From NCBI GenBank assembly GCA_031259505.1, contig JAIRLL010000135.1, positions 1-10,830 of the forward strand: a DNA stretch of 10,830 bases. Direction: 5' to 3'. A program made the position numbers and the translations under genes. Shown piece by piece: positions 2,892 through 6,009 of the stretch. Origin of the DNA: Tannerella sp. GTDB lineage: Bacteria; Bacteroidota; Bacteroidia; Bacteroidales; Tannerellaceae. Position 1 is the first letter of the stretch; every line of letters starts with the position of its first letter. The notes under the pieces are model-generated. The model worked only from the letters and a program-made list of their open reading frames with translations. It did no database searches and was not told the origin of the DNA.

Positions 2892-3731
2892 CTACGGCGT
2901 TTCCTTCTCGAAAGTCATTACCGGGAAACCGACTTGTCCGGCAGTATGGGCGTGAAGATACTGCACTTCAAATACAGAATCGTTCACCACGTGAAAAAAC
3001 AGTTCATCCGGATAATAAGTATGTCCGCCGTCCACGCTGGCAAGTATAATGGCATGTTCGCGTATTTCGTATTTATATTTATCCGCTTGAGGAGATTCTC
3101 TACGCAGGAAGGTCGCTATTTCCAGATTTTCCTTATCAATGAGATTGATTTCTGTCCAGGACACATTATCCGGGTCAGACGGGTATGTTTCCCGATATAC
3201 TCCCGGCTGAAGATTTACCGGCAAGCTGCTTTCGGGCACAGGCTCCAGCGAGGTCAGTTCGAGCGTTCCGTACGTTTCGCCCTCATCGCCGGTATAAAGA
3301 CGCACCGTACCGTTCATTTGAACGCTGATTTCCGTGACGGCAGTCCATCCTGTCTGAAAAAACTCGCCATTCCACTGTTTCGCAGATCCGGGCAGGTTGA
3401 TGACTTCGCAATGGACAATCCTGCCGTCCGCATCTGCATATCCAAAGTATGTGTCGGCTTCATACTGTGGCGAAGGCGGATAATTTATGATAACGTCCCT
3501 TGGACTGGAACGCCATATCTCATTCCGTTTTACGTCGAACTTCGGTTCGAGAATACGCAGCCGCGTCTGCAGGTTTTCAATCACCGCGACAGCGTAGGGT
3601 TCCTCCCCTACGGGATTGATCGCCTCCGGCTCTTCGGGCGGCAACGTGGCGACGGACGGTTCTTTCCCGCAGGAAATCCATCCTGCCAGAAGCAATGCCA
3701 TGAGGCCAGTAAAAATTTTTTCCATGATCAT
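2892..3731 (-). CDS. Putative lipoprotein of unknown function
   Basis: This is a 279-residue exported protein that I cannot assign to a family. The N-terminus has Lys5, a hydrophobic stretch FTGLMALLLAGWIS, then Cys21. This gives a lipobox-like GWIS-C site followed by a charged, proline-rich linker (GKEPSVATLPPEEPE). A lipoprotein signal peptide is therefore likely, although the residue at -3 (Trp) is unusual. The remainder is acidic and rich in beta-type sequence (EADTYFGYADADG, TVRLYTGDEGETYGTLELTS, DGGHTYYPDELFFHVV), with no membrane helix and no further cysteine. It may be an outer-surface or periplasmic beta-sheet protein. M3 (codon at 3723-3725) is an equally plausible start. It has its own promoter (3754-3785) and is transcribed away from the RNA-rich intergenic region. 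The coding call rests on a long clean frame, the signal peptide and the upstream promoter. Confidence 0.85.
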   Translation of the reverse strand: MIMEKIFTGLMALLLAGWISCGKEPSVATLPPEEPEAINPVGEEPYAVAVIENLQTRLRILEPKFDVKRNEIWRSSPRDVIINYPPSPQYEADTYFGYADADGRIVHCEVINLPGSAKQWNGEFFQTGWTAVTEISVQMNGTVRLYTGDEGETYGTLELTSLEPVPESSLPVNLQPGVYRETYPSDPDNVSWTEINLIDKENLEIATFLRRESPQADKYKYEIREHAIILASVDGGHTYYPDELFFHVVNDSVFEVQYLHAHTAGQVGFPVMTFEKETP

Positions 3732-3753: not shown

Positions 3754-3785
3754 CAAAATTAGATGAAAAACATGTGTTTTCCAAA
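3754..3785 (-). promoter_or_regulatory. Bacteroidota-type promoter of the lipoprotein gene
   Basis: On the minus strand, TAATTTTG (3761-3754) matches the -7 consensus TAnnTTTG. TTTG (3785-3782) lies 20 bases upstream of it, which is the expected -33/-7 spacing. The predicted start point near 3746 gives a leader of about 15 bases. Confidence 0.7.
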
Positions 3786-3800
3786 TGCGTGAAATAAAAA

Positions 3801-3915
3801 TCAAGGCCACTCTCTGTTCCGCTTACTCACGTACTCTCACACGTACAACTGCTATCTTTACCCCATTAATATAAGCATTATAATGTAAGTTTATAAACAG
3901 ATATTGTGGCCTTGA
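3801..3915 (-). ncRNA. Candidate small structured RNA, possibly 6S-like
   Basis: A perfect 10-bp inverted repeat, TCAAGGCCAC (3801-3810) and GTGGCCTTGA (3906-3915), bounds a 115-base segment. Read on the minus strand, the first arm starts 6 bases after a TATCTTTG promoter box (3929-3922). The last arm is followed directly by TTTTTATTT (3800-3792), a terminator-like U-tract. Inside the closing stem, nt 15-20 UCUGUU pair with 98-103 AACAGA, and nt 27-31 CUUAC pair with 90-94 GUAAG. This extends the rod with small internal loops. Beyond that is an A/U-rich open region and a GUAC…GUAC hairpin (nt 70-85). No long reading frame fits inside. A rod with an open middle is the general shape of 6S RNA, and nt 56-63 UAAAGAUA are complementary to a TATCTTTA promoter-like box. 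Family assignment is inference; another Bacteroidales small RNA class is possible. Confidence 0.6.
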
Positions 3916-3921
3916 CGTGCG

Positions 3922-3929
3922 CAAAGATA
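3922..3929 (-). promoter_or_regulatory. -7 promoter box of the candidate small RNA
   Basis: TATCTTTG on the minus strand exactly fits the Bacteroidota -7 box TAnnTTTG. It is followed after 6 bases by the first nucleotide of the closing stem at 3915, which is the usual distance to a start point. The -33 box is weak; TTCG at 3955-3952 with a 22-base spacer is the best candidate. Confidence 0.55.
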
Positions 3930-4044
3930 GTGTATTTGCGCGTATATTGGACGAACAGGGCAAAAAAAAAATCAGACGCGCCATCGTTTACGACATGCCG
4001 CGCTGACAGTCGAATGACGCCGGCCTGTACAGGGATAAGACGCA

Positions 4045-4145: not shown

Positions 4146-4241
4146 GTAGAATAATGTCGCAAAATTACACCGCACGCAGTATAAATATAAGCCATTTTTC
4201 GTCAGGATCGCATCGGCGGATATTTTTTATCGGGGGAGTCG

Positions 4242-4272
4242 TTTAGCGTATCAAAAATAATGACTATCTTTG
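4242..4272 (+). promoter_or_regulatory. Promoter of the SRP RNA gene
   Basis: TATCTTTG (4265-4272) is a perfect -7 box. TTTA (4242-4245) lies 19 bases upstream as a near-consensus -33 box. Transcription would begin at about 4275-4278, exactly where the terminal stem of the SRP RNA begins. Confidence 0.75.
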
Positions 4273-4274
4273 CA

Positions 4275-4375
4275 GCCGGGTAAGTCCTATACGGCCAGCT
4301 CCCTCGGAACCCCCCAGGGCTTGATCGCAGCAAGGGTACTTGGTTGTAGCGGCGCGATATAGTAAGCTTACCCGT
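4275..4375 (+). ncRNA. ffs: Signal recognition particle RNA, small bacterial type (4.5S)
   Basis: This is the RNA scaffold that binds Ffh and directs nascent membrane proteins to the FtsY receptor. The ends pair perfectly over 8 bp: CGGGTAAG (4277-4284) with CTTACCCG (4367-4374). The centre, CTCCCTCGGAACCCCCCAGG (4299-4318), followed by GCTTGATCGCAGCAAGGGTA (4319-4338), matches the Bacteroidota form of SRP domain IV. CAGG and AGCA supply the symmetric loop that Ffh recognises. The apical loop reads CUUGAUCG in place of the common GGAA tetraloop. The length of about 100 nt fits the Alu-less form. A perfect promoter precedes it and a T7 tract (4375-4381) follows the terminal stem. I rate the identification as strong; exact ends are estimates. 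Confidence 0.88.
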
Positions 4376-5244: not shown

Positions 5245-6009
5245 ATGGATTCGATTAAAACTTATCTTGATAAACAACTGGCGCTGACAAATACGCCGGC
5301 TTTTGCCGAAAACGATCCCGTGCAGTTTCCTCGACGATATAAAAAGCTGCAGGACATCGAAATCGTGGCGTTTGTCGTGGCGACCATCGCCTGGGGTAAT
5401 CGCAAAATGATACTGAACAGCGCCGAGCGGCTGCTTTCGAGCTGGGGCGACGCTCCGCACGATTACGTCATGAACGAAGGTTATCGAACGCTCGGAAAAG
5501 CCAATGTTCACAGGACTTTCTTCGAACATGATCTGGCTTACATGCTGCGAGGTTTCAGGCATATATTTGCGTCGTACGGAAGCCTGGAAAACTTTCTGAC
5601 GCATCAAAACGCCGGACGGGCGGAAGCGCCTGCATGGTATGCAGCTTCCGCCATGCGGACGGAAATGATGAAAGCCAACGGCGGACAGCACAACGGAAAA
5701 TGCTTTCCCGTCAATCTCGAAAATACGGCGCTCAAACGTGTCAACCTGGCGCTAAGATGGCTGGTGCGAAAAGACCGCATCGTCGATCTGGGCGTATGGA
5801 CTTGTATCAGGCCGCATCAACTGTATATTCCTCTCGACGTACATGCAGGAAACACGGCGCGCAGACTGGGACTGCTGCAACGGAAAAGCAACGACCGGAA
5901 AGCCGTAGAAGAATTGACCGCCAAACTGCGCGAATTTTGCCCCGAAGACCCTGTAAAATATGATTTTGCACTTTTCGGAACAGGCGTAAACAAACTGATG
6001 ACGCAATGA
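5245..6009 (+). CDS. TIGR02757 / DUF2400 family protein
   Basis: This 254-residue cytoplasmic protein belongs to the conserved TIGR02757 (DUF2400) family, common in Bacteroidota. I know of no experimentally established function. Recognised stretches are DPVQFPRRYKKLQDIEIVAFVVATIAWGNRKMIL near the N-terminus and LALRWLVRKDRIVDLGVWT followed by IRPHQLYIPLDVHAGNTAR in the middle. The end reads EFCPEDPVKYDFALFGTGV. There is no signal peptide or membrane helix. The start was placed at ATG 5245, 18 bases after a strong -7 box. A TTG at 5224 in the same frame lies inside that promoter and was rejected. It is upstream of oxyR with its stop overlapping an in-frame ATG of oxyR, so the two are probably co-transcribed. 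That gives a contextual, not demonstrated, link to oxidative stress. Confidence 0.9.
   Translation: MDSIKTYLDKQLALTNTPAFAENDPVQFPRRYKKLQDIEIVAFVVATIAWGNRKMILNSAERLLSSWGDAPHDYVMNEGYRTLGKANVHRTFFEHDLAYMLRGFRHIFASYGSLENFLTHQNAGRAEAPAWYAASAMRTEMMKANGGQHNGKCFPVNLENTALKRVNLALRWLVRKDRIVDLGVWTCIRPHQLYIPLDVHAGNTARRLGLLQRKSNDRKAVEELTAKLREFCPEDPVKYDFALFGTGVNKLMTQ

Follow-up and report, generated by a model that had tools for sequence, protein, structure and literature searches.

Judged from homology, the region at positions 3754 to 3970 of the window, meaning the whole 10,830-nucleotide stretch of Tannerella sp. DNA analysed here, is a remnant of a decayed insertion sequence of the IS110 family, namely its left end (LE), and it is likely that this left end bears an antisense RNA controlling the element's own transposase gene (tnp). 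The argument draws on the identity of the element, the codon constraint on a promoter box, the covariation of a stem and the frequency of a U-tract, from which we infer that the RNA is produced and acts on tnp. For this locus, a sequence-only reading had proposed a small RNA with its own promoter, closing stem and U-tract, possibly a 6S-type RNA; the small RNA survives as a feature conserved in a family of mobile elements, and the 6S assignment does not.

In the explanation that we propose, an IS110-family element would have entered the -7 box of the promoter of a lipoprotein gene, and its left end would have remained there. The left end of the family would carry an antisense-RNA gene opposite the transposase start, with the -7 box embedded in the K-D-S codons, a closing stem joining the 5' and 3' ends of the RNA, and termination at a U-tract. 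Most likely, such an RNA would tune transposase expression by pairing with the 5' region of the tnp mRNA, like the RNA Asr9. The features of the locus are these:

3754..3970, + strand: decayed IS110-family remnant, LE plus the first 26 tnp codons (by homology to sister-genome copies; right boundary approximate)
3893..3970, + strand: 5' fragment of the IS110-family transposase gene, with ATA where relatives have ATG
3922..3929, - strand: putative antisense -7 box TATCTTTG, the same bases as the tnp codons around K-D-S on the + strand; synonymous sites conserved in relatives
3906..3916, - strand: 5' arm of the closing stem, GTCAAGGCCAC, the same bases as the tnp codons for C-G-L-D on the + strand
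3800..3810, - strand: 3' arm of the closing stem (LE arm), GTGGCCTTGAT, within the LE and pairing with GTCAAGGCCAC
3792..3800, - strand: U-tract TTTTTATTT, directly after the closing stem
3831..3846, - strand: inner hairpin GUAC...GUAC, which is GUGC...GCAC in some relatives
3853..3860, + strand: promoter-like -7 box of the transposase, here TATCTTTA; in relatives too the box lies between the arms
3792..3918, - strand: predicted antisense RNA, its start placed from the box and its end from the U-tract
3754..3761, - strand: LE tip with outward -7 box TAATTTTG, lying 22 nt upstream of the start codon of the lipoprotein gene
2892..3731, - strand: lipoprotein-like gene, 279 aa, no Pfam match, with the LE tip as its putative promoter

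An IS110-family remnant and its relatives

The + strand frame of the window reads INRYCGLDVRKDSVFARILDEQGKKK, which contains CGLDVRKDS, and a sister copy in a genome of the same genus (L044, in G011) continues as an open frame, CGLDVHKDSVFACILD.... Here, the window fragment and the protein of the sister copy (P0001) share 18 of 24 residues (BLASTP E 5e-11), and P0001 matches PF01548, the DEDD transposase domain, with an E-value of 7.1e-16. A PF01548 search with the window's own 26-residue fragment, which is too short for it, gave no match. In a DNA search of 100 related genomes, dispersed copies were found, with strong matches (E < 1e-6) in seven, the window's own genome included; some of the seven hold multiple copies, and a number of copies lie near contig ends. 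The window's genome has a second decayed copy (G000:C186, L052), and the copy in the window has lost its start codon and nearly all of the transposase gene. A repeat consisting of MITEs only was set aside; some copies continue into an open transposase frame. At E <= 0.1, an Rfam search of five element-bearing loci (L140, L086, L106, L031, and L044) found no match in either the LE or the right end (RE). Elsewhere, L031 has a weak match to the Bacteroides sRNA BTnc060 (5568-5776, + strand; 49.5 bits, under the gathering score of 228.9).

Relatives were collected by scanning named genomes with amino-acid patterns, one of them containing HKD, which gave at least 80 loci, including ones from Tannerella, Paludibacteraceae, Seramator, Petrimonas, Prevotella, Bacteroides, and Pedobacter. 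Two copies (L113 and L120) lie in MAG contigs labelled Lachnospiraceae, perhaps through binning contamination. Among the matches listed, 9 of the 80 were left out for want of a GLD..K motif close to the match, leaving 71; for codon counts, two that were too short were removed and the other 69 thinned at 85% identity to 54 representatives. The fixed LE-tip pattern is common to 56 of the 71 clade loci (50 distinct tips with at least 400 nt of flank), and the RE motif was found at 39 of the 71 (35 distinct flanks for base counts, 34 distinct ones with at least 400 nt).

The inspected loci follow one plan, in which the LE tip CAAANNTA is followed by an A-tract and an arm such as ATCAAGGCCAC, then by a box for tnp and by tnp itself, beginning (M..)CGLDVHKDS, and lastly by a second box such as TATCTTTGTGG 3' of tnp with a conserved segment and by the right end TTTATAGAGGAAA. 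From the tnp end to the RE there are about 245-310 nt (six members), as against 113-221 nt from the LE tip to the tnp C codon; the longer non-coding region thus lies downstream of tnp, as in the IS1111 group. Subterminal inverted repeats, which are 11-13 bp in IS1111, appear long by eye in L092, L095, and L104 and weak elsewhere. Downstream of tnp, a candidate guide-RNA segment with its own box is conserved in 12 aligned members and has a weak consensus fold of 13 pairs, 8 of them with compensatory changes; this segment is absent from the window. In L139 (about 4170-4280) and its equivalents, this candidate bridge or seek RNA has the box TATATTTGTGG/TATCTTTGTGG and the 3' end AGAGGAAA, and the segment contains repeats of two terminal motifs, AGAGGAAA from the right end and CAAAC or CAAAA from the LE tip. 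A bridge RNA within the LE, its place in IS110-group elements, was set aside on two grounds: the guide-like segment with its own box is downstream of tnp, and the stem of the LE shares bases with the start of the coding sequence.

Antisense box, closing stem and U-tract

A promoter box is apparently encoded inside conserved enzyme codons, with two synonymous sites invariant among the 54 representatives. For K, AAA is used in 54 of 54, and for D, GAT in 52 of 52; elsewhere in the aligned N-terminal part, the same residues have AAA at 119 of 269 and GAT at 140 of 265 (Fisher p of about 3e-17 and 2e-13, respectively, shared ancestry being ignored). On the opposite strand, TAnnTTTG would be lost if either of the two sites changed, this motif being the -7 consensus for Bacteroidota as presented in excerpts of PMC7366714. 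Moreover, the codon after D starts with A at 69 of the 71 loci, so that the TA of the box is kept, and the exact TAnnTTTG box occurs at 57 of 71, with TATCTTTA in 10 more; one locus outside the representative set (L064) has GAC at the D codon. The putative promoter is thus situated opposite the first tnp codons, as is that of Asr9. By eye, no TTTG was seen in the window at the -33 position upstream of the antisense box. Elsewhere in the tnp alignment, the isoleucine of column 98 is ATC in 40 of 47 sequences, ATC making up 22% at other mostly-isoleucine columns.

Improbably, in our estimation, the fixed CAAAGATA, which shares the motif CAAANNTA with the element's junctions, is kept as an internal recombination site rather than as a promoter, and mini-elements arise there. 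Consistent with this, homology stops at GTGCA|CAAA in L034 and L035, with different sequence after it and L034 joined to a second LE tip; in L036 it stops just past CAAAGATA, and an insert shared by L037 and L038 starts 3 nt after CAAAGATA. However, the breakpoints equally fit the promoter reading with an element that targets -7 boxes, there are five such copies only, and the exact breakpoints are ambiguous since CAAA belongs to tnp. The breakpoint region of the shortened copy L034 is at about 200-270, and the shared insert of about 85 bases lies inside tnp at about 3200-3285 in L037 and 3175-3260 in L038 (+ strand), with a TTTG, by eye, 19 nt before the box on the minus strand. The sequence before that box was rejected as a host promoter, as the insert is inside tnp in L037 and the same in L038.

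With regard to the arrangement on the minus strand, the -7 box (3929-3922), the closing stem (3916-3906 with 3810-3800; 10 Watson-Crick pairs and one G-U) and the U-tract (3800-3792) do stand in the right order, as first noticed, and the claim that this is hard to get by chance held up. Box, 10-bp stem, and U-tract come together at one place in the window, and none of 200 first-order Markov simulations of the window has the combination, whereas lone TAnnTTTG boxes are common (12 in the window against a mean of 5.8 per simulated window). For the minus-strand segment, the fold has an energy of -38.9 kcal/mol (z -4.4), which none of 200 shuffles equals, and a longer piece gives a z of -3.5. The + strand folds at -31.5 (z -5.9; again 0 of 200 as good), which is relatively stronger against its own shuffles; as both strands beat their own shuffles, folding cannot choose between them.

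The expected stem conservation was found in relatives. In an alignment of 19 sequences (the window and 18 relatives), 97.5% of the cells of the closing stem and hairpin are paired, with slid controls at no more than 41%, and there are 16 double-change cells as against 5.3 after shuffling (0 of 500 shuffles reach 16). Two of five covariation measures fail to beat shuffling, namely the pairs changed on both sides (3 versus 1.9; 110 of 500) and the further pair types (9 versus 9.3; 485 of 500). Only the closing stem, the GUAC...GUAC hairpin, and a 2-bp helix are kept in this alignment, the middle not being conserved; the two inner helices described earlier are accordingly present in the minimum-energy fold of the window and not kept across the 19 sequences.

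More widely, an LE arm complementary to the tnp codons, with at least 9 of 12 Watson-Crick pairs at the best position, is found at 59 of the 71 loci, a few of these arms being clearly misplaced (e.g., in L097 and L139), and the same test gave 57 of 69 for real and 76 of 1380 for simulated upstream regions. We prefer the count from the 19-sequence alignment and the simulated control, since placing arms by an ATAAAAA rule alone misplaced many; arms so placed (41 distinct combinations) make on average 5.61 of 10 of their own pairs, compared with 5.19 when shuffled, a value that 1 of 20,000 shuffles reached. Beside the LE arm, an A-tract, the U-tract of the minus strand, is present at 54 of 70 clade loci, and of the 16 without it, some lack it because the arm was misplaced. 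Where it is present, the arms enclose 58-140 nt, which is long for an intrinsic terminator.

A different role for the stem, which we rate as unlikely, would be in the + strand mRNA, where external transcription would let the LE arm fold on the tnp start and block translation, mRNA from the internal promoter would be without the LE arm, and there would be no antisense RNA. Blocking of read-through transcripts in this manner is a feature of IS10 and IS50. In line with it are the promoter-like box between the arms at 56 of 70 loci, the + strand fold z of -5.9 given above, and the G-U cells, which among 44 distinct A-tract arms fit the + strand in 11 cases and the minus strand in 5, under an arm-picking rule that itself favours + strand wobble. 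However, it leaves unexplained both the fixed AAA and GAT codons outside the stem and the frequent U-tract on the other strand. On the preferred reading, the tnp start is overlain, in order, by a start box, the two ends of a closed RNA, and a U-tract, and for this reason a minus-strand RNA in that place is probably real in the family.

Left-end tips as possible host promoters

Beyond the right-end GGAAA, the flank reads NNTA, with T in 34 and A in 33 of 35 distinct cases. Two loci with nearly identical right ends (L133 and L135) are nevertheless followed by GGTA and GATA, respectively, a difference which suggests that NN derives from the target. The element thus appears, from these junctions, to have inserted within CAAA|NNTA, which is the -7 box read on the opposite strand, with TA coming from either target or element. 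Outward-pointing genes also tend to begin close to the LE tip: 33 of 50 flanks have such a start no more than 60 nt away, versus 7 of 34 at the right end (p 5e-5).

Comparisons between species, which are not perfect empty sites, are available for two genes and accord with this. In G009, folB is preceded by TTTTTCATCTAATTTTG from the LE, and five orthologues without an LE whose start is seen have an ordinary box at the place, these being TATTTTTG in G011 and G001, TACCTTTG in G008, TATATTTG in G022, and TAATTTTG in G013; TTCATC precedes the box in G011, G001, and G008. The lipoprotein gene has an orthologue in G002 (L165; 74% identity over 54 residues) with the ordinary box TACCTTTA where the window has TAATTTTG of the LE; from that point onward, the flanks are homologous. 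The remaining lipoprotein orthologues, where inspected, are too diverged or in other contexts.

A search with the outermost 77 bases of the LE gave 72 matches, spread over 15 of 61 genomes, the window's own included, and an outward ORF lies within 60 nt in 23 of the 30 matches fetched. Transposase and LE matches number 1 versus 13 in G002 and 3 versus 14 in G009, in assemblies whose fragmentation loses repeats. From these counts, we infer that the LE has been retained as a promoter for host genes; the shortest LE matches (about 30-47 bases) may possibly reflect the likeness of common host promoters. In this genus, LE pieces stand before ordinary genes, the window's lipoprotein gene among them; by eye, the genes behind the pieces at L179-L208 include folB (L183) and possibly hisG (L187) and methionyl-tRNA synthetase (L207).

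As to the window copy, its transposase is gone, and an antisense RNA made there would therefore be without a target in cis; the outward LE promoter is plausibly what stays useful. That this copy is dead and makes no RNA, whatever the family does, is possible, if on the doubtful side: it lacks a start codon and nearly all of the gene, yet stem and box are intact in it and constrained in the family, and a dead copy would be compatible with our reading at the family level.

In a wider picture, for and against which we find ourselves evenly balanced, a Bacteroidota-wide branch of IS110 would be directed to host -7 boxes by an RNA that the element encodes, insert between TTTG and TAnn, and use its own left end to restore a working promoter, with hardly any harm to the host from insertion. 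Left ends would outlive the element as domesticated promoters of housekeeping genes, and the antisense RNA in the N-terminal codons of the transposase would restrain copy number. Apparently, the target of this mobile element is the core promoter motif used by the host phylum, which the element replaces; such promoter targeting would be a natural model for insertion that is harmless and possibly guided by RNA, and it would also supply new promoters.

Relation to known elements and RNAs

RNA-OUT of IS10 is an antisense RNA over the tnp start, in an element whose transposase and sequence are unrelated to those of the window family. A closer likeness, one of arrangement, is to ISPpu9, an IS110-family element of Pseudomonas putida, as it is described in excerpts of PMC8450116. 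Its antisense RNA, Asr9, is about 180 nt long with a predicted terminator and has its promoter inside the first 8 tnp codons. Shared with the window family, where the RNAs are predicted, are thus an RNA opposite the tnp 5' region, a promoter in the first tnp codons, a predicted terminator stem-loop, and a second RNA downstream of tnp. In contrast, the window family has a Bacteroidota -7 box, the 5' and 3' ends of its predicted RNA form a closing stem with tnp codons, and its target site is a promoter where that of ISPpu9 is a REP sequence. According to the same excerpts, tnp translation goes up under Asr9 and down under the antisense RNAs of IS10, IS30, and IS200, and the effect in the window family may be of either sign.

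With the IS110/IS1111 elements that have a bridge RNA or seekRNA, as presented in excerpts of PMC11208160 and PMC11187229, the family shares the DEDD transposase (PF01548), a long non-coding end, and a defined target. Its candidate guide RNA is downstream of tnp, as is usual in IS1111; in contrast, long subterminal inverted repeats were noticed only in some members, and the target is a -7 box that the LE rebuilds. IS110 elements, bridge and seek RNAs, and antisense RNAs of insertion sequences are thus already known from these sources. Among the matches listed in the open-licence literature (titles and abstract openings), we noticed neither a promoter-targeted IS110 nor an antisense RNA in a Bacteroidota IS110. 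As far as searches of that scope show, two findings are new: across Bacteroidota, a promoter box kept constant within transposase codons, and an insertion that takes place in a -7 box and replaces the promoter.

For a 6S-type RNA binding RNA polymerase, the rod-like fold and a segment complementary to the -7 box would speak, and the fold is the only likeness to 6S or 6S-Flavo. UAAAGAUA is indeed complementary to the antisense box, the reason being that its own reverse complement is another box, the transposase's promoter-like one on the other strand, whose sequence in the window is TATCTTTA and which several close relatives have as TATCTTTG. Moreover, the sequence is element-borne and multi-copy, in an IS end over transposase codons, and its middle is not conserved. 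Among 4227 Rfam families searched at E <= 10, the window had no match to 6S, 6S-Flavo (RF01685), or Bacteroidales-1. The 6S model (RF00013) also had no match in the window's own genome (a MAG about 81% complete) and found 6S in only 8 of 14 control genomes; a true 6S RNA may exist elsewhere in that genome. We thus rejected a 6S RNA at this locus on the covariance search and the IS-end location, considering it vanishingly improbable, and a false lead is thereby removed. In the same intergenic region, the window encodes a Bacteroidales small SRP RNA (RF04183; 4271-4377, + strand; 122.5 bits), which was the sole Rfam match of the window above its gathering score at E <= 10, alongside three weak ones elsewhere.
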